Shown here piece after piece: positions 34,339 through 64,000 of a DNA stretch of 64,000 nt. Within the stretch, counting starts at the first letter, position 1. Every line of letters begins with the position of its first letter. Source of the DNA: Nostoc linckia FACHB-104 (lineage in GTDB: Bacteria; Cyanobacteriota; Cyanobacteriia; Cyanobacteriales; Nostocaceae); the NCBI RefSeq assembly GCF_014696615.1, contig NZ_JACJQJ010000027.1:1-64000 (forward strand). Reading direction: 5' to 3'. The notes under the pieces are model-generated. The model did no database searches and was not told the DNA's origin. It saw only the letters and a list, made by a program, of their open reading frames with translations. Both the position numbers and the translations under genes were made by a program.

Positions 34339-35217
34339 CTAAGCAAATACAATACCAGATCTTTCTAAAGCTCGAGTTAAGGTGCGTTTAGTGTTAACCT
34401 CCATAATGTGGGCACGATATTCTGCGGAAGCATAGCGATCGCCTACTATAGAACCCACACTTGCTTTTGCCAACTTAGAGGCTGCTGCTATATTTTCAAC
34501 TGTGGGTGCTTTACCCTCTATAGCGGCCTCAACTTGAGTTAGTCTCACAGCATAGGGGGTAACACCAGTCACTGCTACGCGACATTTGTCTACTATGCCA
34601 TTGTTGATTTTTGCAACTGCGGTGGCAATCCCACAAAGAGTATAGCCAGTTGCAGGATGCTTAAAAGCTTGATAAGCACTGCCCTTACCAGAAGCATCAG
34701 CTGGTAAATCAATTGATGTGACAATTGCTTTTGATTGCCAATTACTTTGAAAAGATTTAGCAATCAATGGCGCTGCCTCAATCTGATGGCTACCTTCTGT
34801 ATCAATAGTGTTAAAACTCGCCTCTAGTACTAAAGCCACTGCTGTGAAATCACAAGCTAGGTCGCGATAGGCAAAAACATCACCGATTGTTTGCCAGTTG
34901 CGGATTTGAGCGTCTCCAATGTTGTTAACAGCCTCAAAAAGTGCTGGATAATTCTCCTGAATTTCGCGGGATGCTGCTACTTGAGCATAAGTAGTCATGG
35001 CATTGATTTGCAGGATATTCCCTGGATAGTTAATTCCTCGCAAACTAATAATTTTACCTAAATCTACCAACAGAGAAGGAGAGACATTGCCTCGTTTCAT
35101 TTCTGCAATCAGGCTGTGACTACCAGCTAAAATCAAAGCCTCTGCGTTATCTTTTAAGAACTTTACTGCAGCGTCCAGGCTTTCTGGCGCTACATAGTCA
35201 AATTGAACGGGAAGCAT
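34339..35217 (-). CDS. CoxM-like FAD subunit of a molybdenum hydroxylase, altered FAD motifs
   Basis: A 292-residue protein aligning end to end with the flavin subunit of CO dehydrogenase/xanthine dehydrogenase-type enzymes (start LPVQFDYVAPxS, then LVDL, AMTT, AEYRAHIM). The first FAD motif, usually AGGHS/AGGTD, is AGSHS (about 31-35). The second, usually TIGGN or TIGGD, reads TIGDV (about 111-115), and the following conserved DP is also changed. FAD binding is therefore doubtful. Its normal partners, CoxS-like and CoxL-like, are 15-22 kb away on the same strand. Confidence 0.82.
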   Translation of the reverse strand: MLPVQFDYVAPESLDAAVKFLKDNAEALILAGSHSLIAEMKRGNVSPSLLVDLGKIISLRGINYPGNILQINAMTTYAQVAASREIQENYPALFEAVNNIGDAQIRNWQTIGDVFAYRDLACDFTAVALVLEASFNTIDTEGSHQIEAAPLIAKSFQSNWQSKAIVTSIDLPADASGKGSAYQAFKHPATGYTLCGIATAVAKINNGIVDKCRVAVTGVTPYAVRLTQVEAAIEGKAPTVENIAAASKLAKASVGSIVGDRYASAEYRAHIMEVNTKRTLTRALERSGIVFA

Positions 35218-35785: not shown

Positions 35786-36253
35786 CTATGTCATAGGTTC
35801 TGAAGATTCTATTGCTGCTTTCAGCGTTTTCCAACCCAAGGTTGCACATTTTACTCGCAAAGGAAATTTAGATACTCCTTTAAGAATATTGAGCTTTTGT
35901 AATTCTCTTGGAAATTCCGTTTCTCCTTGCATCATGCTATGAAAAGATTCGATCATATTGAGGGCTTCGCTAATGCTTTTCCCTTGAACATAACCAGCCA
36001 TTAAATCAGCTGACGCGATTGAGATAGCACAACCTTCACCCTGGAATTTAATCTCCTCAATAGTGTCGCTAGCTTGATTGAGTTTTAAAGTTAGTTCGAT
36101 AGTATCGCCACAATAGGGATTAGAACACTTGTGATAACGATGAACTGGAATTGTTGTACCTCTATACCTGGGTTTTTTAGACCGTTCCTGAATCACCTGC
36201 TCGAAAGTGTGTCGCTGATTCTCCGGAGAGGCCGTTGCCCTTTGGGAAGCCAT
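35786..36253 (-). CDS. sufU: SufU-type iron-sulfur cluster scaffold/sulfur acceptor
   Basis: A 155-residue IscU/SufU-family protein. The zinc/cluster ligands are C48 and D50 (PYCGD), C75 (GEGCAIS) and C136 (RVKCATLGW), the SufU arrangement. It probably receives sulfur from a cysteine desulfurase in Fe-S assembly. It is single here; no suf operon surrounds it. It lies beside molybdenum-hydroxylase-like genes, one of which has lost its Fe-S ligands, but no direct link is visible. Confidence 0.83.
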   Translation of the reverse strand: MASQRATASPENQRHTFEQVIQERSKKPRYRGTTIPVHRYHKCSNPYCGDTIELTLKLNQASDTIEEIKFQGEGCAISIASADLMAGYVQGKSISEALNMIESFHSMMQGETEFPRELQKLNILKGVSKFPLRVKCATLGWKTLKAAIESSEPMT

Positions 36254-36645: not shown

Positions 36646-39600
36646 TTAGCCAAACACAAATTTAGCGCTTTCGGCTTGTAGTTGAGCTTGGGTAATCCCC
36701 AGGAAAGTAGCGAAATTAGTACCATTGATACCCAGAATAGCGTTGCTTTGAGCATCTTGGCTAAAGGTGAGGTCATTTAGTTTATATGTCTTACTGCCAA
36801 TTCCCACAACATCTATACCTAGTACAAAATCACTGATGGTGTTAGCAGCAGTTGGGATGTCCCCAGTGATCACCCAGAACTGGTCAGCACCAGCACCACC
36901 AGTCAGGACATTATTTCCGCCTTCTTGAACATAGAATTTGTCGTTACCTTCACCACCCAAAGCGCGATCGCCGGCACCCAGGAAGAATGTATCATCACCC
37001 ACACCACCTGAAATGCGGTTACCACCTTGACCCTCAGTAGCGTCGAAGGTGTCGTTTCCTGAACCACCAAACACGCGATCGCTCTTGCTGACATAGATAA
37101 TATCGTTATTGCTGCCACCAAAAACACGATTGCGTCCGATTTGCGAAGTGGCTAGATCTACTTCATCATCACCTGCGCCGGTGAAAATTATCTCTCGGTT
37201 GCCATCAAATCCATTTGACCCTGCAATTAATATATCTTTATTAGGTGTACCAAAATTGAGATTTTGCGGGTCAGCCATAAAATCAGATGAATCAAGCTGA
37301 ACTGCACCCTTAATTACAGCCAATACTTTTTGAGTGTCAGTTACCTTGATTTCCACATTCCCATTAGTAGGGGTAATAGTTAACTGATCAAAAGACAAGT
37401 CGTTCAAGAGTTTGATTTTGTCTTGACCTTTTTCAAAGTCATTGATTGTGTCAGTTCCATCACCAGCAGCAAAAGCAAATGTGTCTTTACCCGCATTACC
37501 CCAGATATTATCGTTACCTAGTCCACCTGTTATCAGGTCGTCACTGCTACCGCCCCAGATAACATCGTCGCCAGCGCCACCATTGATTGTGTCCGCTCCT
37601 TGATAACCATAGATGACATCTGAAGCATCAGTACCAGTGTAGTTATCCCCCCCATTACTACCAAAGGTCAGCTTCTGCCCAAAGCGAGTCCAGCTACCTT
37701 CTGTTCTTAGCGCAGTTACAATATCGTAGCTATTTTCAAAGAATTCATAGCGACTTATCTTGTTATCTTTTATGTCAATATTGATGGCAAAAGGAATATC
37801 CTGAGCTAAATTTTGCGTCCGGTTATTTTGATAATCAAAATTGCCGAACACGACCACAGTGTTACCTTCCGCATAGGTTTGCTCAATCTTAAAGTCGAGG
37901 ATTTTGAACTCTTGAACTAATTGTTGCAGGAAGCTCTTGATTTCTTGAGAACCAGTATGGACTGTTGTCCAAGGTAGAATACGATTTCTTTCATGGAAAA
38001 ATGAAGTTTCTGAGTAGTCATTATCAGCGCGCCCGACTATATACTGAGCATCGTTGGTAAAATTAGCATCTATGTATTGATTAGCATTGCCAGTGAGAAC
38101 GGCATTAAAGAAGCCTTGTACTACCTGTAAATTAGCATCTTCATCAGCTGGTGCTGGTGCAACAGTCGGATCTTTAGGCGCTGGGTATTGTAAGCTAGGC
38201 CCAGTCGGAATTTTGATAAAATCGCTCTGATCAATTTTCCCTGCGGCTCCCTTGATCACAGCGAGAATTTCTGATGTAGCAGTGACTGTTACTACTGCAT
38301 CAGCGCCATTATTACTAATAGTTAACTCATTGAAGTTTAAATCTGTGGTTGTAGGTTGAAAAGTATTGTTGTTAACAGCGTAGGATACTTTTCTGCCTAA
38401 ACCGATTTTGTCTACTCCATCTTCAAAGTCAACAATGTTATCGGTGCCTTCTCCTTTTACTAAAACAAAGGTATCGCTACCAGCACCACCAGAGATAGTG
38501 TCATTACCACTACCACCCCAAATTTCATCATTACCAGATACAGCACTGATATTGTCAGCTTCTTGATAGCCATAAATTAAGTCTTGTCCGTCCTTACCCG
38601 TTAAAGTTTCGGCAAATCGGCTGCCAAAGATCACATTGAGGGCAGGTAGGGGATTACCTTGACTATCTTGCCCAAAAAGCCGCTCCCAGTTACCGCCATC
38701 TCGTTCGCCGCTGATACTAGCCCAAGCATCCTCACGAATAAAATACTTGCTAATTTTGCCATCTTTGACTTCTGCCTCTAGCGCCCAAGGAGTGATGACG
38801 TAATTACCAGTGGTCTTACTTAAATGAACATAATCTCCAAAGGCTGCAATTTTATTGCCATCTACTACGTATTTATCAACGTTGTAGCGTAATACTTGTC
38901 TAAATTGAAATAGGCCATCACTAAATTGGATAGCTCCGGCTTTTCCTGTAAAGGGGAAGATGGCAGGATTGATTAAATTGCTTTCATGAGCATGAGAATT
39001 TTCATTGTAGTTGACATCTTGAGTGACGATAAAGAATTTGACATCATCAGTGAAATTAGCATTCACGTAGTCAGCAACACCTTGAGGGCCACCTAAGTAA
39101 GAATTAAAGTAGCCTTGGAGTAAATTGATGTTTTGTTGTTCTTGCGCTGAACGAACATGGACAAAATCGCTCTGAGTGATGTTGCTGGCTTGAACTCCTT
39201 TTAAAGTTGCTAGGACTTCCCCTGTCTGGGTAATTTTGATTTCGGTATCTTGATTATTGGTGTTGATGGTGAGTTGGTTAAAGCTCAAAGACCCAGCTAG
39301 ACCTATTTTGTCTTGACCATCTGTGAAGTCAACAATGGTATCAGTTCCCTCACCTGGAGTTAAGACAAAGATGTCGTTACCTCCACCACCGTAAATCTTG
39401 TCATTACCTTTTCCACCGTTGATTGTATCGTCACCTTGATAGCCGTAAATTTCGTCGGTGCGATCGCCACCAGTTATGTTGTCTCCCCCTGTGGTGCCAA
39501 AGGTAAAATCAACTGTTTGGTCTGCACTCAAATTAGCAGTCCAAGTACCACTTTTACGAGCAGCGATACTATAAGAATAGGCATCTTCATAAAAATGGAT

Positions 39601-41313
39601 AAAATCTACTTTGCCATTTGTTGGGTTGACATGAAAGTCATAGGCAAAGGGCACATCATGAACGTTTTTAGTATTTTTATCCCGGTATTCAAACCGCCCA
39701 AATAAGGCTAAATCAGGCCCATTTTGGAACACGTCATCAATCAAGAATTTAGTGACTGAATCCGTTAAGTCGTTAGCTTCGCCAAGACTACTGATAAATC
39801 CCTGAGCACCTGCTATTCCTTGCCATTCTTGAGTGGGAGGAGTAATGCCATAACGCTCGTGAGAGAAGGATACAGAGTAACCGTCTATATCAGAATTGTA
39901 TTCTTCAAAATAGGAGTTTTGACTCTCAATGATGATGTACTTAACATTGGGATCAAAATTGGACGCTATATAGTCCAATATAGTGCCGTTGCCGAAAGCG
40001 TTAAAGAAGCCGAGAACTGTTTGGCGATAACCTGCTTCTGCTTGTGGAGTAAAGTTTGCTGGGTCAGGATTGTCTGTTGGGTAACCTCTAAAAGCAGGAA
40101 ATTCCTGTAAAACAGTAGATTTAGTCTGATCGCCAGCTTCAATGAAGTCATCTGCGGTAATCTTGGTGGCATCAACATTCTTCAGAAGTGCTAGCTTTTC
40201 ATTTGTGCTAGCAAGACTAATCGCTGTATCAGCACCTTGTTGCTCAATTTTGAGCTGACTAAAGGTGATTTTAGGAGCTAATTCAGTGACATTTGTTCCA
40301 TTTGTCGAATCTAATAAGGCTGGTGCTCCCACCAACTTATCTACACCATCGACAAAGTCCGTAACTGTAAAAAATCCTTCGTCTGTGGGTTTAGCAACTT
40401 TGGCATCGGAGTACAGCACGAAGAAATCACTACCAGCACCCCCAGTAGCAGTATCAAAACCAATACCACCCCAGAGAATGTCATTACCATCGCCACCAGT
40501 TAGAGAATCGTTACCACTACCACCGTTGAGGTAGTCATCACCGCTACCACCAGTTATGGTGTCATTACCTTGGTAACCATAAATGACATCCCTGAGTTGG
40601 TTGGGATTACTGTCACCATTTAAAGCTTCGCTGGCTCTAGTACCCCAGCGAATATTGACGGGATGGATTGCGCCTAGAGGACTGTTTGCATTTTGCTCCC
40701 ATAGGTTGACTCCATACTGTCCTTGCCAAGTACCACCTTCACGGGAACCAGCAGCGTAAGCAAAAGAGTTATCGAAGTAGTGATAAAGCTGTATCTTGCC
40801 ATCATTACTCATCGTAATGTTGATGGCAAAAGGTGTACTGACAAAGTTGCCTGTACGGGAGTGAACATACCGCAGATAGCCGTAGACTGCGACTTTATTA
40901 CCTTCAGCAATATATTTCTGATCATTGAATTGAAAGAACTTGCTATCAAAATCAAAGTCAGATGAAAGAGCAGTGATAAAATCCTTCACACCTGCCGGGC
41001 CGATGTATTCTTTTGTTTCTGGAACCAGCGCATTGCGCTCGTGAGAAAATCGATCATCAGCATAAGCATTGGTCTCATCTAGATTTTTCTGTGGTGTTTC
41101 TCCACCAGGAATAGCTAGTTGAAATACGACATTACCGTTTGCGTCTTTGCCATCGTATAGTTCTTTACCACCACGGACGATGATAAATCTGCCATCAGAT
41201 GTGACATTACCATCAATGTATTGATTTAATGCTGTAGAATCTTTCTGGCGAAAAGATGCGAAAAAGCCTTTAACTACATTGATATTGTTTTGTTCTTGGG
41301 TAGTGTAAGCCAT
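36646..41313 (-). CDS. giant RTX calcium-binding protein with four NTF2/SnoaL-like domains
   Basis: A 1555-residue, probably secreted protein with no N-terminal signal. It is built of four repeats of: an NTF2/SnoaL-like domain of about 190-200 residues (starting near 1, 420, 720 and 1056; pattern NxxVVxGFF...Y/F), an RTX block of GGxGxDxxx nonapeptides, and a short beta segment (FVLxxGEGTDTIVDF..DKIGL...ATLKG). A longer RTX tail (about 1345-1500) and a C-terminal segment end the protein, as expected for type I secretion. RTX repeats fold on binding calcium outside the cell. The interleaving with NTF2 domains is unusual. The start has GAGG five bases before the ATG. No type I exporter is encoded in the window. 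Confidence 0.85.
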   Translation of the reverse strand: MAYTTQEQNNINVVKGFFASFRQKDSTALNQYIDGNVTSDGRFIIVRGGKELYDGKDANGNVVFQLAIPGGETPQKNLDETNAYADDRFSHERNALVPETKEYIGPAGVKDFITALSSDFDFDSKFFQFNDQKYIAEGNKVAVYGYLRYVHSRTGNFVSTPFAINITMSNDGKIQLYHYFDNSFAYAAGSREGGTWQGQYGVNLWEQNANSPLGAIHPVNIRWGTRASEALNGDSNPNQLRDVIYGYQGNDTITGGSGDDYLNGGSGNDSLTGGDGNDILWGGIGFDTATGGAGSDFFVLYSDAKVAKPTDEGFFTVTDFVDGVDKLVGAPALLDSTNGTNVTELAPKITFSQLKIEQQGADTAISLASTNEKLALLKNVDATKITADDFIEAGDQTKSTVLQEFPAFRGYPTDNPDPANFTPQAEAGYRQTVLGFFNAFGNGTILDYIASNFDPNVKYIIIESQNSYFEEYNSDIDGYSVSFSHERYGITPPTQEWQGIAGAQGFISSLGEANDLTDSVTKFLIDDVFQNGPDLALFGRFEYRDKNTKNVHDVPFAYDFHVNPTNGKVDFIHFYEDAYSYSIAARKSGTWTANLSADQTVDFTFGTTGGDNITGGDRTDEIYGYQGDDTINGGKGNDKIYGGGGNDIFVLTPGEGTDTIVDFTDGQDKIGLAGSLSFNQLTINTNNQDTEIKITQTGEVLATLKGVQASNITQSDFVHVRSAQEQQNINLLQGYFNSYLGGPQGVADYVNANFTDDVKFFIVTQDVNYNENSHAHESNLINPAIFPFTGKAGAIQFSDGLFQFRQVLRYNVDKYVVDGNKIAAFGDYVHLSKTTGNYVITPWALEAEVKDGKISKYFIREDAWASISGERDGGNWERLFGQDSQGNPLPALNVIFGSRFAETLTGKDGQDLIYGYQEADNISAVSGNDEIWGGSGNDTISGGAGSDTFVLVKGEGTDNIVDFEDGVDKIGLGRKVSYAVNNNTFQPTTTDLNFNELTISNNGADAVVTVTATSEILAVIKGAAGKIDQSDFIKIPTGPSLQYPAPKDPTVAPAPADEDANLQVVQGFFNAVLTGNANQYIDANFTNDAQYIVGRADNDYSETSFFHERNRILPWTTVHTGSQEIKSFLQQLVQEFKILDFKIEQTYAEGNTVVVFGNFDYQNNRTQNLAQDIPFAINIDIKDNKISRYEFFENSYDIVTALRTEGSWTRFGQKLTFGSNGGDNYTGTDASDVIYGYQGADTINGGAGDDVIWGGSSDDLITGGLGNDNIWGNAGKDTFAFAAGDGTDTINDFEKGQDKIKLLNDLSFDQLTITPTNGNVEIKVTDTQKVLAVIKGAVQLDSSDFMADPQNLNFGTPNKDILIAGSNGFDGNREIIFTGAGDDEVDLATSQIGRNRVFGGSNNDIIYVSKSDRVFGGSGNDTFDATEGQGGNRISGGVGDDTFFLGAGDRALGGEGNDKFYVQEGGNNVLTGGAGADQFWVITGDIPTAANTISDFVLGIDVVGIGSKTYKLNDLTFSQDAQSNAILGINGTNFATFLGITQAQLQAESAKFVFG

Positions 41314-50150: not shown

Positions 50151-52523
50151 TTACAGATGATTCATCGCCCGCCAAACTTTTTCTGGTGTCAGAGGCATAT
50201 TTAGATGCTTGACTCCTAGAGGACTAAGAGCATCGCAAACAGCATTCACTATTGCAGGTGCTACAGGTGGATTGCTGACATCCCCAGCTCCTTTGGCTCC
50301 TAGCGGATTATGAGGGGTAGGGGTGACAGTGCGAGCCAGTTCAAAGTGGGGTAAGTCGGAAGGTTTGGCGATCGCATAACTGGTGAGGTCATCTGTGAGG
50401 ATTTTGCCAGACTCATCATATACAGCTTCTTCAAATAAAGCTTGACTAATCCCCAGATAAATATTGCCGTGGGTTTGACCATCAACAATCATCGGATTAC
50501 CGACATTGCCAAAATCATTGACTGCGACATAGCGCACTACTTCAACTTCGCCTGTTTCTTGATCAACCTCAACTACGGCAATATGAGTACCAAAGGGATA
50601 GCTAAAATCTGGTGGATCGAAGAAGGTAATAACTTCTAATCCTGGTTCCATTCCTGGTGGTAAATCCCAAGCATACCAAAGAGCTAAGGCTATATCCTGT
50701 ATAGTCTTGACCTGATCTGGTTGATTTTTAGGATAGAATTTACCGTCCTCAACAATAATCTCTGCTTCTGGAACTTTGAAGATATGAGCTGCCATTTTCC
50801 GGGCTTTTTCGTTAATCTTTTGGGCAGCTTTGTAGACTGTCGCACCTTCAACGCTGAAGCTACGGGAACCATAACTACCCTGAGCGTAAATAGCTCCTCT
50901 GGTATCGGAATGTATTACTTCAATGCGTTCAATATCAATCCCTAGTTCTTGGGCAGCAACTTGAGAGAAGGTGGTTACATGACCTTGACCGTGGGGCTGA
51001 CTACCTGTAATTAAGCTGACATCACCTGTGGGATGTACGCGCAGGTGAACGCTACCCCAGGTACTACCATTGAGACCAATATCTTTAGCCATAATTGGCG
51101 AAGGGCCTACACCAGATATGGCGACAAAGGAACCAATTCCGACACCTAAATATTTACCTCGCGCCTTGGCTTGTTCTTTGAGTTGGGGAATATTTTTGTA
51201 ATCCACCATTTCTAAGGCTTTATCAAGGGCGACTTGATAATTACCGGAGTCATAAGTCCAGCCCAAACCGTTCTTGTAAGGGAACTGATCGGGAGGAACC
51301 ATGTTTTTACGGCGAACTTCTGCTGGATCTAAACCGATTTCATCAGCAAAGAGGTCAACCAAACGCTCAATTACACAGTGGGCTTCTGTCCGTCCTGCAC
51401 CGCGAATTGGGCCTGTTTGGGTAGTGTTGGTGAATACGCAGTAAACTTCATAAAAAGGATGCTCAATGGCATAAGCCCCTGATATGCTGCGGCCTGTCAA
51501 ACTTGTAGGCGCGCCAGGGCCGTTGGTGCCAGAAAAGGCTCCAAGGTTAGCGTAGTTGGTGCAATAGAGGGCAGTAATTTTGCCATCTCTGTTACCTGCA
51601 AGGGTGGCATACTCAATGTGATCGTGGGAGTGGACGGTGGTACGCGCTAACCCTTGACGAGTATCTACCCACTTGACGGGACGACCCAGTTCTTTAGCTA
51701 AAAACAGTGTGATAGCTGTATCTTGATATAGATATCCCTTAGAACCGTAACTTCCGCCCATGTGGGGAACAATTACCCGCAGTTTGTTGAAAGGAATTCC
51801 TAAAACTAATTGTGATAGCAGAAAGCGGTTCCCGTGGGGAATTTGGGTATTTGTCCACAGGGTATAGTCTCCGGTTTCGGGATTGTAATCTGCGATCGTG
51901 GCGCGAGTTTCGCTAGAATTGGCAATCACCCGGGGAATGCGAATTTTTTGCTTGATCACTACCTCAGCAGCTGCGATCGCTTTTTCTGTGGCTTCTTTAT
52001 CTCCATAACTGGCATACTGGTTCAAATTACCCGGTACGTTGTCATATAGTTGCGGTGCATCTGCCTTCAGCGCTTCCTCCGCATCAGTCACAACTGGTAG
52101 CGGCTCGTACTCTACCTTAATGCCTTTAAGAGCGTCATATGCTTGTTGACGGGTTTGGGCAACCACCACAGCCACAAAATCGCCAACATAGCGAACTTTA
52201 TTGATAGCTAAGATAGTTTGACCTGCTGGTAAGCCATAGGGATGGGGTGGGAATTTCGCCGCCGCACCACCAGGATTCATAATCACGGGTAGGGGAAAAA
52301 TCGAGCTAGTATCGGCTCCTGTAATCACCCGCACCACTCCTGGCATTTTTTCCGCCACAGTGGTATCAATGCTCTTAATTAGAGCATGAGCCTCAGTACT
52401 GTGCAAAATTGCCATATGTAACATATTTGGCAAAGTAATATCTGCGGTAAATTTGGCTTTTCCGAGCAATAATTCTGGATCTTCACGTCGTTTAATAGAA
52501 GTACCTAGTATATTTTGATGCAT
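50151..52523 (-). CDS. CoxL-like molybdopterin subunit of a xanthine dehydrogenase/CO dehydrogenase-family enzyme
   Basis: A 790-residue large subunit of the molybdenum hydroxylase family. Molybdopterin-binding segments are present: GGSYGSKG (about 255), IRGAGRTEA (about 370), HGQGH (about 508) and GSYGSRS. The loop IRGAGR is like form II 'CoxL' proteins, not the RCSFR loop of true CO dehydrogenases, so CO oxidation is unlikely. The C-terminal GAKGxGE motif that carries the catalytic Glu base reads GAKGAGD, with D748 in place of Glu. Length is normal. The small subunit (56550) and the FAD subunit (34339) are encoded apart from it. Substrate unknown. Confidence 0.87.
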   Translation of the reverse strand: MHQNILGTSIKRREDPELLLGKAKFTADITLPNMLHMAILHSTEAHALIKSIDTTVAEKMPGVVRVITGADTSSIFPLPVIMNPGGAAAKFPPHPYGLPAGQTILAINKVRYVGDFVAVVVAQTRQQAYDALKGIKVEYEPLPVVTDAEEALKADAPQLYDNVPGNLNQYASYGDKEATEKAIAAAEVVIKQKIRIPRVIANSSETRATIADYNPETGDYTLWTNTQIPHGNRFLLSQLVLGIPFNKLRVIVPHMGGSYGSKGYLYQDTAITLFLAKELGRPVKWVDTRQGLARTTVHSHDHIEYATLAGNRDGKITALYCTNYANLGAFSGTNGPGAPTSLTGRSISGAYAIEHPFYEVYCVFTNTTQTGPIRGAGRTEAHCVIERLVDLFADEIGLDPAEVRRKNMVPPDQFPYKNGLGWTYDSGNYQVALDKALEMVDYKNIPQLKEQAKARGKYLGVGIGSFVAISGVGPSPIMAKDIGLNGSTWGSVHLRVHPTGDVSLITGSQPHGQGHVTTFSQVAAQELGIDIERIEVIHSDTRGAIYAQGSYGSRSFSVEGATVYKAAQKINEKARKMAAHIFKVPEAEIIVEDGKFYPKNQPDQVKTIQDIALALWYAWDLPPGMEPGLEVITFFDPPDFSYPFGTHIAVVEVDQETGEVEVVRYVAVNDFGNVGNPMIVDGQTHGNIYLGISQALFEEAVYDESGKILTDDLTSYAIAKPSDLPHFELARTVTPTPHNPLGAKGAGDVSNPPVAPAIVNAVCDALSPLGVKHLNMPLTPEKVWRAMNHL

Positions 52524-54520: not shown

Positions 54521-55633
54521 CTATCTAGTATGAATTGGTTTTTCATTGTGAGATAGCCGTTCGCCATTCCGCCCGCTTCTGAGGGCAATCACTTCAGCCA
54601 TAATTGAAACTGCTGTCTCTTCTGAGGTACGAGCGCCGATATCTAGCCCAATTGGGGCAGAAATGCGGTTAATTTCCGCCTCAGTTAGTCCAGCTTCTTG
54701 AAGACGGCTGATTCTATCTTTAGTAGTTCTACGACTACCCATTGCCCCAATATAAGCGGCTGGTGTCCTCACAGCGCTAACTAAAGCAGGGACATCAAAT
54801 TTGGGGTCATGAGTGAGAACAACAATCATAGTGCGGTGGTCTATATGAGCATTTTCTAAGTATTTATGGGGCCATTCTACAATCACCTCATCAGCGGCGG
54901 GAAAACGTGCAACTGTGGCAAAGCTATCGCGTGCATCACAGACAGTAACACGGTAACCCAGGACTTTCGCTAATACAGAGAGCGATCGCGTGAAGTCAAT
55001 AGCCCCAAAAATAATCAAGTGAGGTGGTGGAGCAAAAGACTCTATAAAAACTGTGACCTCTGCTTGCCGACATTCTTCATTTAAACTAAAGTCAGACAAT
55101 TTAGTCAGCCCTTGATGCAACATTCCTTGAGCATCATCAGCCACTATGCAATCAATCTCTGCATTACCGAGGGAACCCAAGCGATCGCCCTTTTCGTTGA
55201 CAATCATCTTGGCTCCCGCCTGTATTCCCTCCACCACTGTACAGATAGCTATGGGTTTCTGTAATGATTGGCGAATTGCTTGGAAAATCTCCATCAGACT
55301 GAGATTATTACTATGTAATTTGTCTGAGAACTGCTGGATAAAAATTTGAATTGTACCGCCGCAGGTTAAGCCAACCGATAGACCCAATTCATCACTGATC
55401 CCATAACTTACTAGCCGTGGTTCGCCTGATTGGATGACTATCAGAGCTTCTTCTACCACGGCTGCTTCTACACAACCACCGCTAACAGAACCAAGAACTT
55501 CTCCAGCATCGTTAACCGCCATCACAGCACCGACTTCCCTAGGGCTGGAACCTAAGGTTTTGACCACAGTTGCTAATGCTACAGTATGGCCCAGACTTAG
55601 CCATTGTTCGACTTCATCTATTACTTCTTTCAT
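54521..55633 (-). CDS. XdhC/CoxI-family molybdenum cofactor maturation protein
   Basis: A 370-residue protein of the XdhC/CoxI family, which binds molybdenum cofactor, helps its sulfuration and inserts it into xanthine dehydrogenase-type enzymes. The N-terminal CoxI domain has the conserved GSSPR, SGGCVE and LTCGGT motifs; the C-terminal Rossmann-like domain follows (about 205-345, IIFGAIDF, VVLTHDPKFD, YIGAMGS). All motifs appear intact. This contrasts with the altered CoxM, CoxS and CoxL homologues and argues that a molybdenum cofactor is still delivered, probably to the CoxL-like subunit. Confidence 0.9.
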   Translation of the reverse strand: MKEVIDEVEQWLSLGHTVALATVVKTLGSSPREVGAVMAVNDAGEVLGSVSGGCVEAAVVEEALIVIQSGEPRLVSYGISDELGLSVGLTCGGTIQIFIQQFSDKLHSNNLSLMEIFQAIRQSLQKPIAICTVVEGIQAGAKMIVNEKGDRLGSLGNAEIDCIVADDAQGMLHQGLTKLSDFSLNEECRQAEVTVFIESFAPPPHLIIFGAIDFTRSLSVLAKVLGYRVTVCDARDSFATVARFPAADEVIVEWPHKYLENAHIDHRTMIVVLTHDPKFDVPALVSAVRTPAAYIGAMGSRRTTKDRISRLQEAGLTEAEINRISAPIGLDIGARTSEETAVSIMAEVIALRSGRNGERLSHNEKPIHTR

Positions 55634-56549: not shown

Positions 56550-57014
56550 CTAGCTTTGCTGTAATTTTTCAGCCGCATATTTAATGGCACTGACAACATT
56601 TTGATAGCCCGTATCCCGTGAATAAATCCCATCTAACCAAGCACGAATTTCTGTTTCTGTAGGATTGGGATTTTTTTGTAAGAGATCCATTGAAGACAAA
56701 ATCATTGCTGGTGTACAAAAGCCGTTTTGCACTGCGTGCTTTTCCCAGAAGGCTTCTTGAATAATGCTCAGTTGCCCGTTTTGAGCAATACCTTCAATTG
56801 TGATAATGTCACCACCATCTGCTTGTACTGCTAGCACAAATGAGCTTTTTACAGATACGCCATTGAGTAGAACTGTACAAACACCAGAAGTTGAACCACC
56901 ATCATCTTTTGTACCTGTTAAACCAAGATGATCTCTGAGAAAGTCTAATAACAGTAGATTGGGTTCAACATCTGCTGTATATTTTTTAGCATTAACTCGC
57001 AAGGAAATTTCCAT
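56550..57014 (-). CDS. CoxS-like small subunit that has lost most [2Fe-2S] ligands
   Basis: A 154-residue protein aligning over its whole length with the [2Fe-2S] small subunit of molybdenum hydroxylases (LRDHLGLTGTK, VLLNGVSVKS, TIEGIAQNGQLS, FCTPAMI, PTETEIRAWLDG, TGYQNVVSAI). In active subunits eight Cys hold two clusters. Here the N-terminal set keeps only C46 (GGSTSGVCTV, then KSS for KSC), and the C-terminal set only C100 (QNGFC for QCGFC; YSRDTGY for LCRCTGY). Neither cluster can form in the normal way. The frame is intact, so it is not a simple pseudogene. I chose the ATG at 57014 over a TTG eleven codons upstream. Confidence 0.88.
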   Translation of the reverse strand: MEISLRVNAKKYTADVEPNLLLLDFLRDHLGLTGTKDDGGSTSGVCTVLLNGVSVKSSFVLAVQADGGDIITIEGIAQNGQLSIIQEAFWEKHAVQNGFCTPAMILSSMDLLQKNPNPTETEIRAWLDGIYSRDTGYQNVVSAIKYAAEKLQQS

Positions 57015-58416: not shown

Positions 58417-59085
58417 TTAATTGTAATTAGTAGCTTCCAAAGCAGAAGTTCTGATTCGTAAGGCTGTTAACCACCAAAACCAAGTATGGGCTGCCATCCA
58501 TGCTTCTCCTACCCCTCCATTGACACGCTTTTCTAGTTGTGGATTTTTCGGCAAAACAAAATAAGCAAGGTTTGCAGTTTCTGCTAATGGTTGAACTTTG
58601 ATATTCGCAGGAAGTTGAATACCTGCTTGCTTTTCTAAAGCTGTTTTTGGTTCAGTAAAAAGTTGATGCCTTAAAGATTCATCTTGCATGAAGCGAACAA
58701 TGATTAGGGATTCTAAACCTTCTCTGAAAGCTAGAGCGTTCTCTGATTTAGTGCGGTAAATCCACCACCACCATGTATATGTTAACGTCCACCAAACAGA
58801 CATTTGCTGATAAAAGTTTTCCCATTGAGCTTGTGTTGGAGGTAGAGGTGGAATCACAATATAAAAATCATCTTCATTTTCCTCTAGCACTCGAACTTCT
58901 AAGTCTGCAGGGAATTTAATTCCTGTTTCCCTTTCAAACACAGCTTTCGGATTTTTCAGAATTTCTTGTTTGAGGTTTTCATCATTCCAAATAAGATTAA
59001 TTAACCGTGCTTGTAAAGCGTCTTTATAAGGGTCAAATCCAGTTACGTCTACTCCTGCCCAAGTTCTCTTAACTGCACTTAACAT
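58417..59085 (-). CDS. tandem NHLP (nitrile-hydratase-leader-like) protein with Trp-rich tails
   Basis: A 222-residue protein with two NHLP-type domains, at about 22-80 and 117-181, each with the family pattern: helix, KNPKAVFERETGIKFP / TEPKTALEKQAGIQLP, then an acidic strand and VIPP / VLPK. Each is followed by an aromatic tail: the first has W98, W99 and four consecutive Trp (105-108); the second has W196, W202, W204, W205, after a Gly-Gly (190-191). NHLP domains serve as leader peptides of ribosomal natural products (proteusins) and are related to nitrile hydratase alpha chains. No maturase or peptidase-transporter is in the window. The ATG at 59085 has GGAG nine bases upstream. Function unknown. 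Confidence 0.75.
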   Translation of the reverse strand: MLSAVKRTWAGVDVTGFDPYKDALQARLINLIWNDENLKQEILKNPKAVFERETGIKFPADLEVRVLEENEDDFYIVIPPLPPTQAQWENFYQQMSVWWTLTYTWWWWIYRTKSENALAFREGLESLIIVRFMQDESLRHQLFTEPKTALEKQAGIQLPANIKVQPLAETANLAYFVLPKNPQLEKRVNGGVGEAWMAAHTWFWWLTALRIRTSALEATNYN

Positions 59086-59308
59086 TGTGGATAACTCCAA
59101 GCAATTGTTTGGTTGTCTTTCTGATTGTACCAGTTTTTTGCTAAAGCATTTCAAGACTATTTATAAGTAAATCTTAAGTAGGTTTTATTACGGACATGAA
59201 ATAATTTGGTGATGAGAGAAAATGAAATTTAGCCGTAGGAAATAGTCGCATAAATAATGCGTTAGACAACCCCTACAGTAATTTTATTTTTACTTTCTAA
59301 ACAGCCTC

Positions 59309-60025
59309 TTATACTAACCTCGCTCCACCATCTACATCAATAACCGCACCAGTTGTAAACTTGTTGTTGATTAAATATAGAACTGTCTCAGCAATATCTT
59401 CTGGTTGAGCGATCCGCTTTACAGGTAGAGAATCAGCTACATAATTAAAGTAGTTTTGCCGTTGTTCTGTTGGCATTCCTTCATAGAGAGGAGTTGCTAC
59501 TAAACCAGGAGACACAACATTTACGCGAATTGGGCTGAGTTCAACTGCTAAAGAACGAGCTAATGCTTCCAGAGCTCCATTCACAGATGCCATGATAGAA
59601 AGATTAGGTACTGGTTTTTGCGATGCATAACCAGAAAAGAAGACGATCGCACCACTAGGTTTTAGTTTGGCTGCGCCATATTTAGCGGCATAATAGTGCC
59701 CCCAAAACTTATTTTCAAATATCTGGCGGGCTACTTTTGAATCTAATTCCAGAAATGCTCCCATTGCTTCCACAGAAATAGTGATGACTAAACCATCAAA
59801 ACTACCAACTGTGGAAAATAACTTTTGCACTTCTTGTTCATTTGTGATGTCTACACTATATGTAGCTACTCGTTCACCAATTTCAGCTTTAGCAGCATTT
59901 AATTTAGCTTCTGAACGACTAGCAATTATGACATTTCCCCCTGCGGCTGCAACTGCTTTCGCACTTGCTAATCCAATTCCCGAACTCCCACCAATTATGA
60001 CTATTTTTTGATTGGATAAATCCAT
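59309..60025 (-). CDS. atypical SDR-family protein lacking the YxxxK motif
   Basis: A 238-residue Rossmann-fold protein of the SDR family. The cofactor motif GGSSGIG (about 12-18) and the C-terminal RVNVVSPG and DVDGG are typical. Where classical SDRs have Tyr-x3-Lys it reads LSIMASVNGALEAL, so both catalytic Tyr and Lys are missing. Such divergent SDRs exist and may use other residues or only bind NAD(P). It lies between the NHLP-type gene and the NTF2-like genes. Confidence 0.83.
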   Translation of the reverse strand: MDLSNQKIVIIGGSSGIGLASAKAVAAAGGNVIIASRSEAKLNAAKAEIGERVATYSVDITNEQEVQKLFSTVGSFDGLVITISVEAMGAFLELDSKVARQIFENKFWGHYYAAKYGAAKLKPSGAIVFFSGYASQKPVPNLSIMASVNGALEALARSLAVELSPIRVNVVSPGLVATPLYEGMPTEQRQNYFNYVADSLPVKRIAQPEDIAETVLYLINNKFTTGAVIDVDGGARLV

Positions 60026-60435: not shown

Positions 60436-60828
60436 TTAGGCTACTGTACCATCGGGATATTGAGTCATTCCAGCAAAGTGAATGGCTATTTTGCCATCTT
60501 TTAAAACCCAGCTATCGGCAAACCGCATTTTAGCTTCTTGTCCGCCAGCCTGCAAAGTGATAGCTTCAACAATCATGAGGGTTTGGGGATTTTCTGTTTC
60601 TGCCCAGAAAGCAATATCTGTTTGTAACCCTTCAATTCCTAGGATGCCTTTAAAGTGTTCTTCTAGTTCTTTGCGTCCGCGGAAATATTTAGGAACTTTT
60701 TCAAAGCTGCTAATTAAAACTGCATCTTCAGTATATTGATTTAATAACGCTTCGATATCCTTTTTGAGGATTAATTGAATGTGTTCTTCGTATAGTCTTC
60801 CTAAAGCAGTATCGGGAGGCTTGGCCAT
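60436..60828 (-). CDS. NTF2/SnoaL-like protein, single copy
   Basis: A 130-residue single-domain protein with the cone-shaped alpha+beta NTF2 fold pattern (Y-x-EHIQLILKKDIEALLNQYTEDAVLIS, then FRGRKEL, FADSWVLKDGKIAIHFAG). It is distantly like the pair at 62068 and 62501. The ATG at 60828 has GGAG ten bases upstream; a TTG eleven codons earlier is unlikely. Members of this fold are ketosteroid isomerases, polyketide cyclases, dehydratases or binding proteins; no catalytic residues can be assigned. Confidence 0.82.
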   Translation of the reverse strand: MAKPPDTALGRLYEEHIQLILKKDIEALLNQYTEDAVLISSFEKVPKYFRGRKELEEHFKGILGIEGLQTDIAFWAETENPQTLMIVEAITLQAGGQEAKMRFADSWVLKDGKIAIHFAGMTQYPDGTVA

Positions 60829-61048
60829 ATTTTCGATTCTCCGTAAATTTTGATTACACAAACCCTTTAGACTCAGGAAAAAGAACTCTTAACAGAGAAG
60901 AAAAAGCAGATACTTTCAGCTTTATTCTGCATTTAGATTCAGCAATAGATGAGATTTTGCCCATGCTATCAGGGACAATTTATTTTGCTAAAAATCTACC
61001 TATGTAATCTTCTAATTTCCAAATTATCTGTTAAGAGTTCTGTGTTAT

Positions 61049-61492
61049 TTACAATGTAGCTGAACCCTCGTAGTATTTGAGTTCATCAACTATATAAACA
61101 GAGATGACTGGTTTATTAGTTTCGGGCGATCGCTTAACTTCCCAGGTTTGATAAGCATCTAAAACAATCCGTTCGCTGTTAGCGGCTGGAGCCTTCCAAA
61201 CACTGGCTTCCCATTTCACAACCACTTGTACATCTGCTTTTTCGGCTGTAGCAGATTTGACTGTCACTTCTTTAACGGTATGAACTTCATCAAAGAAAAT
61301 ATTGATGACGCGATCATACCAACCGCTATATCCTTCAAAGCCTTTAACTGTAGCTTCAGGAAACCTCAATTCCACGTCTGATGCTAACAAGGGAGCATAT
61401 TCTTCCACAGGAACGTGAATGTCTAGTTTTCTATACCAAGCTTTTGCAAATTCTAGAATTTCTGGTTGAGTCAGTGGTGCTAGCTCACTCAT
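61049..61492 (-). CDS. NTF2/SnoaL-like protein, pair A copy 2
   Basis: A 147-residue protein with an NTF2-like pattern (FAKAWYRKLDIHVPVEEYAPLLASD-type helix, ELRFPEATVKG, then a Val-rich strand pair and DELKYYEG). It is a close tandem paralogue of the gene at 61575-62018, with the same length and start (AAGGAAATAAATC before ATG). No function is assignable; ligand binding or cyclase-like roles are possible. Confidence 0.8.
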   Translation of the reverse strand: MSELAPLTQPEILEFAKAWYRKLDIHVPVEEYAPLLASDVELRFPEATVKGFEGYSGWYDRVINIFFDEVHTVKEVTVKSATAEKADVQVVVKWEASVWKAPAANSERIVLDAYQTWEVKRSPETNKPVISVYIVDELKYYEGSATL

Positions 61493-61574
61493 GATTTATT
61501 TCCTTTATTGAACAGTTAATTATTCAAAATCCTGGATAGTTCTACAGAACGTGGATTTCACCAACACATTGACT

Positions 61575-62018
61575 CTACAACTTAAACGAACCCTCGTAGT
61601 ACTGGAATTCATCAACGATGTAAAGTGCAATAACTGGTTGATTAGTTTGTGGCGATCGCTTGACTATCCAGGTTTGATAAGCATCTAAAACAACCCGTTC
61701 GCTGGTGGCTGCGGGTGGCTTCCATAAACTGGCTTCCCATTTGACAACCACCTTGACTTCTGATTGTTCTGGTGTCGATGAGGTTAATTTAACTTGTTTG
61801 ACGATGTGAACTTCATCGAAGTAAGAGTTGATTGCGGAAAAATACCAATCATTAAATCCTGCAACACCTTTGACTGTGGCTTCGGGAAACCTTAATTCCA
61901 CATCTGCTGCTAACAGAGGAGCATACTCGTCCACGGGAGCGTGAACGTCTAGTTTTTTATACCAATCAACTGCGAATTCTGTGAGTTCTGATTCAGTTAA
62001 AAGCCCTGACTCAGCCAT
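61575..62018 (-). CDS. NTF2/SnoaL-like protein, pair A copy 1
   Basis: A 147-residue tandem paralogue of the following gene, aligned without gaps over the full length. Conserved between the two are ELRFPEATVKG, FDEVH, VVVKWEAS and VLDAYQTW. A GGAGATAAATC sequence precedes the ATG. It is 82 bases from its paralogue and 49 bases from the gene upstream, consistent with one transcript. Confidence 0.8.
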   Translation of the reverse strand: MAESGLLTESELTEFAVDWYKKLDVHAPVDEYAPLLAADVELRFPEATVKGVAGFNDWYFSAINSYFDEVHIVKQVKLTSSTPEQSEVKVVVKWEASLWKPPAATSERVVLDAYQTWIVKRSPQTNQPVIALYIVDEFQYYEGSFKL

Positions 62019-62067
62019 GATTTATCTCCTTGCTTCAACAGTTGTTCAGCAACAGCTTTAATTGTTG

Positions 62068-62448
62068 TTAAGCATCTCCTAGCCTGTGAGCAAAACCGAA
62101 GTGACGAGATACCTTACCATCTTTGAGCCACCAAATATCACCAATAGCCCATTTACCTGTTTTGCGAGAAGTCATTGTTGTTTGGAAAGAAATTACATCT
62201 TGCGTTTCCAAAAAGTTGTAGAGAGGATCTACTTGAATTTCGCCTTGATATTCAAGATAAGCCTCAAAAACTTTGATTAATGCTTCTCTCCCCTTAATTA
62301 CATTCGGTGGTGGAGTATCTAAAAAAGGAAAGGCATTATACAGAATTGCATCTTCTGTATAAGTATTGGTCACCATACCAGTCACATCTTTAGTGACGAG
62401 GTAATTTATGTGTTCATCGAAAAACTGGCGGCCAGGTGTAGCAGTCAT
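62068..62448 (-). CDS. NTF2/SnoaL-like protein, pair B copy 2
   Basis: A 126-residue NTF2-like protein. Conserved features shared with its neighbour are GRQFFDEHI, TNTYTEDAILYNAFPFLD, NVIKGREALIKVFE and VSRHFGFAHRLGDA. It is a recent tandem copy of the gene at 62501-62887; even the 3' ends are nearly identical in DNA. The fold matches SnoaL/DUF4440-type proteins. Confidence 0.82.
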   Translation of the reverse strand: MTATPGRQFFDEHINYLVTKDVTGMVTNTYTEDAILYNAFPFLDTPPPNVIKGREALIKVFEAYLEYQGEIQVDPLYNFLETQDVISFQTTMTSRKTGKWAIGDIWWLKDGKVSRHFGFAHRLGDA

Positions 62449-62500
62449 GATTAAAGCATCCTTTGCTCAACAGTTAATTCAGCACCAGCCCAGATTGTTA

Positions 62501-62887
62501 TTAGGCATCTCCTAGCCTGTGAGCAAAACCAAAGTGACGAGATACCTTACCATCTTTGAGCACCCACACATCACCTACTGCCCACTTACCTGTTTTAGGG
62601 GAAGTAATTGTTGCTTGGAAGGAAATTACATCGTCAGTTTCTAAAAAGTTGTATAAAGAATCAACTTGAATTTCACCTTGATACTCTAAGTAACCTTCAA
62701 AAGCTTTGATTAATGCTTCTCTTCCTTGAATTACATTTGGGGGTGGTGTATCTAAAAAAGGAAAAGCATTATACAAAATCGCGTCTTCTGTATAGGTATT
62801 GGTCACCATACCAACTACATCTTTGGCGACGATGTACTTCATGTGTTCATCGAAGAACTGGCGACCTGGTGTAGTAGTAGTACTCAT
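62501..62887 (-). CDS. NTF2/SnoaL-like protein, pair B copy 1
   Basis: A 128-residue protein almost the same as its downstream neighbour, with a slightly longer threonine-rich N-terminus. It lies 52 bases upstream of it. With pair A and the single copy it makes five NTF2-like genes in a row, following a ThDP enzyme gene. Likely first gene after the repeat-filled gap at 62888-63019. Confidence 0.82.
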   Translation of the reverse strand: MSTTTTPGRQFFDEHMKYIVAKDVVGMVTNTYTEDAILYNAFPFLDTPPPNVIQGREALIKAFEGYLEYQGEIQVDSLYNFLETDDVISFQATITSPKTGKWAVGDVWVLKDGKVSRHFGFAHRLGDA

Positions 62888-63019: not shown

Positions 63020-64000
63020 TTATTGACCACACCGAATCCCAATCATGTCAGGGCGAACATCACCCTCTAAGACAACATCGATCAGGAAGGGCCCATTGTG
63101 TGCTAATGCCTGCTTAATTGCTGGGGCAATCTCTTCAGGCTTCTCTACTCTGACGGCTTCAACCCCCATTGAACGAGCCATTTCATCAAAGCGCAGCACT
63201 GGCTTAGACAAGTCAAAACTTATAGGAAAGTCATGCTTGGGTACACTTTGTTCTTGCCAGTAAGCTTGAATATTCAATTGCAATAGCTTGTAAGAACGAT
63301 TATTGCAAATGATGAATATGGCATCTATATTATGACGAGCTGCTGTCCAGAGAGCTTGGATGGTATACATCCCACCGCCATCACCTGTAAAGCCAATCAC
63401 TTTCTTGTCAGGATTAGCCAATTTAGCACCAATTGCCCCAGGAATCCCTACCCCTAGAGAACCTCCACGGGTGAGAAAATAATGATCCGGCAGGCTGGGT
63501 GGTTTATATCTGACGATATTGGGTGAAGAGGTCAAGGCTTCATCAAAGAAGATTGCATCTTCTGGTAACAGAGAGGCAAACTCTTCCATAAACCGAGAGA
63601 AATGCAGGGGAACTTGGTCTCGGACTGCTTTATCCGCTTCTAAGGCTGCGGCTATTTTTGCAGCTTTGGCCTTACCAATCTCTGCGGCTCTTGTTTGAGC
63701 TGCGCTTTGCTCTTCGGCAGTAACGATTTCTTTAATCGCATCTGCTAGTTTTGCTAACGTCAGTTTTGGATCGCAGACAATCCCCACATCTACTGGATGA
63801 TTCTTAGCAATCTCATAGGCGTTCAAATCAATATGAATCACCTTTGCGCCGGGGGCAAATATATTCCCTAGTTCCGGAAAGACCTCTGGCACCATATATG
63901 TGCCACAAACTAGATTGACATCCCCTTTGGTGGTAATTGGCAGACTACTAGAGCCAAACATATGCCCTGTCGCCCCTTGATATAGAGGGTGAGCATAGCT
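63020..64000 (-). CDS. thiamine-diphosphate enzyme (benzoylformate decarboxylase/acetolactate synthase-like), partial
   Basis: The C-terminal 326 residues of a ThDP-dependent enzyme; the frame stays open to the right edge, so the N-terminal part with the catalytic Glu lies outside the window. Visible are the central domain (VCGTYMVPEVFP, VIHIDLN) and the ThDP-binding motif GDGG...NN (about residues 205-232 of this piece), with MYTIQALWTAAR as in benzoylformate decarboxylases. It probably decarboxylates or ligates a 2-oxo acid. It is upstream of, and co-directional with, the NTF2/SDR/MDR/Mo-hydroxylase-like block. Exact substrate unknown. Confidence 0.85.
   Translation of the reverse strand, partial: SYAHPLYQGATGHMFGSSSLPITTKGDVNLVCGTYMVPEVFPELGNIFAPGAKVIHIDLNAYEIAKNHPVDVGIVCDPKLTLAKLADAIKEIVTAEEQSAAQTRAAEIGKAKAAKIAAALEADKAVRDQVPLHFSRFMEEFASLLPEDAIFFDEALTSSPNIVRYKPPSLPDHYFLTRGGSLGVGIPGAIGAKLANPDKKVIGFTGDGGGMYTIQALWTAARHNIDAIFIICNNRSYKLLQLNIQAYWQEQSVPKHDFPISFDLSKPVLRFDEMARSMGVEAVRVEKPEEIAPAIKQALAHNGPFLIDVVLEGDVRPDMIGIRCGQ

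Follow-up and report, generated by a model that had tools for sequence, protein, structure and literature searches.

A stretch of 64,000 nucleotides from Nostoc linckia FACHB-104 (hereafter the window) encodes homologues of the three subunits of a CoxSLM-type complex: a CoxS-like small subunit (56550..57014, (-); 154 aa), a CoxL-like molybdenum subunit (50151..52523, (-); 790 aa) and a CoxM-like subunit (34339..35217, (-); 292 aa). They are accompanied by an XdhC family Moco chaperone with its conserved SGGC cysteine (54521..55633, (-)), an SDR oxidoreductase (59309..60025, (-)), five small SnoaL-like ORFs (60436..62887, (-)) and a ThDP enzyme resembling acetolactate synthase (63020..63961, (-)), which is represented by a 313-aa piece in the window and measures 568 aa in genome G359. 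Three of the five SnoaL-like ORFs were scanned with Pfam, and two of these score over the SnoaL_2 cut-off. The same set recurs in relatives, where the ThDP enzyme, SnoaL-like proteins, SDR, CoxS, XdhC, CoxL and CoxM are found along with VOC and DJ-1 proteins; the ThDP enzyme and the SnoaL-like proteins are conserved neighbours, and the SDR is present in most clusters.

Several further genes were observed at these loci. A 1555-aa protein with SnoaL_2 domains and RTX calcium-binding repeats (36646-41313, (-)) is matched in the fetched stretches of eight of the ten other genomes with a cysteine-poor CoxS. A protein resembling NHLP-leader and nitrile hydratase alpha proteins, with two such stretches (58417-59154, (-)), is part of the cluster in G397, G161, G148 and G197 as well. 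In G357, two extra ORFs lie between the SnoaL-like genes (L150, 4205-7101), and their starts resemble, by eye, GMC oxidoreductase and cytochrome P450. Near CoxM there is a SufU/NifU_N-like protein (35786-36253, (-)) in which the Cys-Asp-Cys-Cys residues, presumably the ligands, are kept; a similar gene occurs in the stretches from four other Nostoc-group genomes and from G357. An Fe-S or sulfur-transfer scaffold beside a cysteine-poor CoxS is an unexpected pairing.

The small subunit is full length, as judged from its Pfam and PDB matches and its predicted fold. Its frame is uninterrupted, and its translation holds cysteine at positions 46 and 100 only. Alignment with relatives shows that these are the two of the eight cluster ligands that are kept, the other six having been replaced or deleted. 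Residues 36-46 (KDDGGSTSGVC; 56877..56909, (-)) once formed the loop of the N-terminal [2Fe-2S] site, in which the motif GTKxGCDxxxCGxC has become GTKDDGGSTSGVC and the loop is shorter by one residue; two ligands are gone from it and C46 is kept, the third lost ligand of this site being S58. The former C-terminal cluster is altered in both of its parts, with NGFC standing for CGFC (residues 97-100; 56715..56726, (-)) and SRD for CRC (residues 132-134; 56613..56621, (-)), the latter within the change of LCRCTGY to YSRDTGY. Although it retains only two of the eight cysteines that ligate two [2Fe-2S] clusters, the protein is homologous to CoxS in sequence and fold over its full length. Pfam Fer2_2 matches it across all 75 positions (E 7.7e-25), and in sequence it comes closest, among PDB entries, to 4zoh_C, 1ffu_A and 1n5w_A. 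The preliminary description had reported exactly this, namely an intact frame and conserved fold motifs with six of eight Fe-S cysteines missing and the YSRDTGY variant among the changes, and the alignments bear it out.

An AlphaFold2 model of the protein (pLDDT 88.9) superposes on 1ffu_A with a TM score of 0.89 and on 4zoh_C with 0.86, and 1n60_A also falls within 0.86-0.89. Because the same rows give a similar result for an eight-cysteine relative, L092 (pLDDT 87.0), the model shows only that the CoxS fold is kept. A dip in confidence at residues 31-50 was considered as the mark of a collapsed cluster loop, and this was rejected since L092, with all eight cysteines, dips there too. The substitutions are concentrated on the cluster ligands. 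Among 42 columns that show no variation across 29 intact relatives, the window protein is changed at 6/8 cysteines and at 7/34 others (Fisher p = 0.006), and the columns changed in at least six of the 11 cysteine-poor proteins comprise 6/8 cysteines versus 6/34 others (p = 0.004), both p values being only indicative because the rows are related. Four of the seven changed non-cysteine columns (G, T, G and L in intact proteins) lie at most three residues from lost cysteines.

Cysteine-poor CoxS proteins were found in 11 distinct cyanobacterial genomes of seven genera and four families (f1, f2, f8 and f9), among them records of Nostoc carneum NIES-2107 and Calothrix membranacea FACHB-236; G396 and G398, which have apparent duplicates in the named records L005 and L006, were counted once each. 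Every one of the 11 carries one or two of the eight cluster cysteines, as against 8/8 in each of 29 comparators, and all 19 aligned relatives from outside the cyanobacteria have the full set. The substitutions are largely shared: C46 is retained in 11/11, C100 in 6/11 (Ser in the other five), C132 in G008 alone and the remaining five ligands in none, while Asp134 is found in 11/11 and Asn97 in 10/11. All 11 genomes have an uninterrupted CoxS frame, even at an identity as low as 66%. Intact eight-cysteine proteins occur in five cyanobacterial genomes (G161, G197, G148, G437 and G448, the last from an assembly that is 38% contaminated). A survey of the order (388 genomes) gave 11 genomes with a close CoxS relative (identity at least 62%, E 5.9e-59 or better), eight of them cysteine-poor and three with eight cysteines. 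A survey of the family (217 genomes) gave eight matches at E 1e-45 or better, six cysteine-poor and two intact, and the four CoxS matches in a survey of the phylum (386 genomes) had all been found in the other two. Within the order, the 11 genomes with a CoxS orthologue are also the ones with a CoxL orthologue, neither being present alone; a twelfth CoxL match (G194) is only 34% identical. Among the open-licence PMC matches listed, neither a cysteine-poor CoxS nor the present cyanobacterial cluster is described in any title or start of abstract.

The cysteine-poor proteins form one clade, supported at 100/99 in the CoxS tree and at 93/83 in the CoxL tree, the latter having 10 rows because the half gene of G169 was left out. 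Its sister is the group of five intact cyanobacterial sequences, 58-65% identical, and a Ktedonobacteraceae row lies outside both; the trees are midpoint-rooted, so the order of losses hinges on this outer position. The genome that contains the window is 9.4 Mb long and 100% complete, and it has single matches for Fer2_2, CoxL and CoxM, all within the window, and no second Fer2_2 match over the cut-off. The window protein is the orthologue of the eight-cysteine CoxS of five other cyanobacteria and of a Ktedonobacteraceae genome with the same cluster, and not a spare paralogue. No other Fer2_2 protein (E 1e-5) was found in eight of the 11 cysteine-poor genomes, an absence that is weak for G357 and G364, which are only 79% and 81% complete. 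A second Fer2_2 protein is present in G396, G397 and G398; that of G396 (L178) keeps its cluster cysteines and has its own M gene and the start of an L gene.

The cysteine-poor CoxS clade is under strong purifying selection. Its dN/dS is 0.033-0.097 for CoxS (13/17 pairs measurable), with 0.076 and 0.144 in intact pairs. The corresponding values are 0.031-0.063 for CoxL (12/17 pairs; intact pairs 0.070 and 0.057) and 0.148-0.266 for CoxM (12/17 pairs; intact pairs 0.235 and 0.208), and the remaining pairs (4/17, 5/17 and 5/17, respectively) gave no ratio owing to saturated dS. Random decay of one genome is ruled out by these ratios and by the single clade spanning 11 genomes.

The molybdenum subunit is altered as well. 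Of the features of a functional molybdenum hydroxylase, CoxL retains the pterin and Mo pocket motifs (TQxPH, RGAGR, GQG and YGSR, with Phe or Tyr at residue 259) and lacks the catalytic Glu of GxGE, which is replaced by D748 in the window (codon 50280-50282). This residue is Asp in 15/15 cyanobacterial copies that cover the site and Glu in 61/61 other rows that cover it. The equivalent Glu of Kdh is strictly conserved and presumed to be the general base (PMC8305194), and the E1265Q variant of mouse AOX1 is inactive (PMC2671166). No Asp variant was noted there; a Glu to Asp exchange retains the acid, and such an enzyme could still work. Seven pocket residues (Q227, G260, R374, G512, Q513, G514 and R554) are kept in 15/15, and residue 259, the pterin-stacking Phe of Kdh, is Tyr in 8/10 cysteine-poor copies. 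In 24 relatives, 122 columns do not vary; 15 of these differ in at least half of the cyanobacterial rows, E748D and F259Y among them. The 23 canonical comparators were hand-picked from 77 loci (L008-L084), among those that have L, M and S, and are thus not a random sample; other such loci, AYRCSFR-type ones among them, were left out of the canonical set, and the key sites of CoxL and CoxM were rechecked on the full row sets. Assignment to the Mo-Cu CO dehydrogenases (form I CoxL) was rejected: the active-site loop AYRCSF, residues 385-390 of the O. carboxidovorans enzyme (PMC8305194), is missing from the window protein, which reads PIRGAGR. The CoxS frame is still open in G169, which carries a CoxL truncated to 365 aa (L151, 15935-17032) next to transposase-like ORFs identified by eye and yielded no CoxM match; the locus can thus be lost. 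The CoxL of G197, from the eight-cysteine group, is split across two frames near residue 70.

In the flavin subunit, the glycine motifs AGGxS and TIGG of functional CoxM proteins read AGSHS and TIGD in the window; those of Kdh are AGGQS and TIGG (PMC8305194). The last Gly of the second FAD motif, residue 113, has given way to Asp or Asn in 15/15 cyanobacterial copies, turning TIGG into IGD or IGN, whereas 66/66 other rows have Gly. The second Gly of the first motif is altered in 6/10 cysteine-poor copies (10 of the 11 genomes, G169 missing) and in 0/5 intact-cysteine ones, being kept in 4/10 and 5/5. Tyr192 is conserved in 15/15 and corresponds to Y193, which shields the flavin of Kdh, and an altered glycine motif does not prove that FAD has been lost.

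Genes for cofactor maturation, on the other hand, persist. XdhC is required for Mo-MPT insertion in the Rhodobacter XDH (PMC2997495). It is found together with CoxS, CoxL or CoxM in 8/11 cysteine-poor genomes (in G357 on the same contig as CoxM), and its conserved cysteine is present in the copies aligned; the fetched stretches of G169 and G364 showed no XdhC. A MocA-like match adjoins XdhC within the cluster in G008 and G096. G282, which yielded no other Fer2_2 or CoxL match, has a more distant XdhC that adjoins a MocA-like gene elsewhere in the genome. The name MocA-like comes from a sub-threshold match: all the matches, present in 16/16 genomes, are below the NCBIfam cut-off, and the same model also matches 14/14 control genomes, once over the cut-off. 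In three intact-cysteine genomes, G161, G148 and G197, CoxS, XdhC and the MocA-like gene lie together about 0.2 to 1.25 Mb from CoxL and CoxM (L156/L157, L158/L159 and L160/L161).

The relay from Mo through two [2Fe-2S] clusters to FAD is a textbook electron wire, and the small subunit of Kdh bridges L and M. The co-occurrence of CoxS and CoxL and the loss of redox features in CoxM and CoxL indicate that the change concerns the whole three-subunit complex and not CoxS alone. Since none of the 15 cyanobacterial copies has the usual second CoxM motif or the CoxL Glu, both changes appear to precede the cysteine loss; the comparison places them in the common ancestry of both cyanobacterial groups, with the cysteines lost in one group only. 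A counterpoint comes from the five eight-cysteine loci with altered CoxL and CoxM, which suggest that clusters may retain a use where the usual flavin motif is missing. The window probably encodes a xanthine-oxidase-family complex whose electron-transfer chain was lost stepwise in cyanobacteria. CoxS and CoxM would persist as structural subunits holding the heterotrimer together, and CoxL would still be loaded with the molybdopterin cofactor, as suggested by the retained XdhC and MocA-like genes and by most of the pocket residues. The chemistry of CoxL would then be independent of the electron wire, a reading to which we assign a probability of about 0.5. CoxL may act in a small-molecule pathway with the ThDP enzyme, the SnoaL-like proteins and the SDR and MDR enzymes. 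In the absence of Fe-S clusters or flavin the usual electron exit from Mo would be closed, making two conjectural options the most likely: a redox-neutral reaction such as hydration, isomerisation or group transfer, or direct reoxidation of Mo by a small acceptor. More tentatively, the complex may be a xanthine-oxidase-family Mo enzyme devoid of Fe-S and flavin altogether, in which a redox-neutral CoxL uses Asp as its base and the former carrier subunits are structural only. This enzyme would represent the last stage in a series of losses, first of flavin motif and Glu and then of clusters, whose steps are seen among living genomes.

The chief competitor, somewhat unlikely in our estimation, is a pseudoenzyme complex: CoxL, CoxM and CoxS would be devoid of every cofactor or of activity and would now serve to bind some ligand or partner, for instance by scaffolding the pathway enzymes encoded in the cluster. 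The replacement of the catalytic Glu and the change in the FAD glycine motif in 15/15, the missing cluster ligands, the Tyr in place of the pterin-stacking Phe in 8/10 cysteine-poor CoxL copies and the continued constraint on the genes would all fit such a complex. However, the seven pocket residues kept in 15/15 argue against it, as does the retention of XdhC with its conserved cysteine and of MocA-like genes, also in G282, in which no further Fer2_2 protein or CoxL was detected. Exchange of the clusters for a different metal or cluster, bound by the remaining cysteines with the new Asp, Ser and Asn, would account for the near uniformity of the replacements (Asp134, Asn97 and the retained C46), but C100 is Ser in 5/11 and C132 survives in G008 only, and C46 and C100 stem from different cluster sites. 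We know of no metal site of such make-up, and this possibility is judged improbable.

Two other explanations are given slightly less weight still. The preliminary description saw in CoxS a cluster-free paralogue with a new role, such as that of a binding or scaffold protein. Taken to mean a CoxS that departed from the complex and acts by itself, this would be in keeping with a predicted fold that is intact without the cysteines and with the remoteness of CoxS from CoxL and CoxM in three intact-cysteine genomes. Such independence is hard to reconcile with the occurrence of CoxS and CoxL orthologues in the same 11/388 genomes, with the position of CoxS immediately before CoxL in G357 and with the redox features lost from CoxM and CoxL. 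Only one CoxS was found in the window's genome, for which the term paralogue is wrong. Equally doubtful is the view that a dispensable operon is simply decaying and that the sampling of close relatives has frozen the picture. The truncated CoxL of G169, the split one of G197 and the patchy spread (11/388 genomes of the order) might be taken as its traces, but low dN/dS (0.03-0.10 for CoxS, 0.03-0.06 for CoxL) and a frame that stays open throughout a single clade of 11 genomes and four families are not what decay would leave. On this point the preliminary description was right in holding that the change is not random decay: orthologues sharing the substitutions exist, their dN/dS is low and the window's genome has yielded no second, normal CoxS. 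Relatives with all eight cysteines, which it had named as evidence against its view, do exist as the sister clade, but none falls inside the cysteine-poor clade. Its interpretation is therefore partly supported, and the observation itself appears larger than it had stated, extending to a conserved CoxSLM complex without an electron relay.

A lineage that keeps the complex and its maturation genes without the wire makes the non-electron roles of the small and medium subunits testable. With intermediates preserved in relatives, it also offers a test of whether this enzyme family can leave redox chemistry. On a practical level, a "[2Fe-2S] binding" annotation drawn from a Fer2_2 match can be wrong, even at the E value obtained here.

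Compared with known systems, the window protein is like the CoxS, CutS and KdhS small subunits (4zoh_C, 1ffu_A, 1n60_A) in length and fold, with 47-53% identity in structural alignments, and like them it is accompanied by CoxL and CoxM. Those subunits hold eight cluster cysteines, whereas six of the eight are replaced or deleted here. The eight-cysteine cyanobacteria G161, G197, G148, G437 and G448 share with the window a CoxL that is 74-76% identical, Asp748 in CoxL and Asp113 in CoxM, and differ from it in a CoxS with all eight cysteines. The Ktedonobacteraceae locus (L007, from the MAG of isolate CP_BM_RX_R7_7) has the order DJ-1 family, ThDP, SnoaL-like, CoxS, CoxL, CoxM, SnoaL-like, the families being assigned from sequence and matches. 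It thus shares the DJ-1, ThDP, SnoaL-like and CoxS-L-M neighbours of the window, with a CoxL that is 60% identical, but unlike the window it has eight cysteines, the catalytic Glu and TLGG; its pocket motifs vary too, with GQS for GQG and RGSGR for RGAGR. Ergothioneine synthase and acetylene hydratase, which we take to belong to another metallopterin family, that of the DMSO reductase type, provide a precedent for redox-free metallopterin chemistry, in a comparison that is our own and claims no homology. The metallopterin-dependent ergothioneine synthase carries out sulfur transfer and the tungsten acetylene hydratase hydration, both of them non-redox reactions at a metallopterin (PMC9516567).
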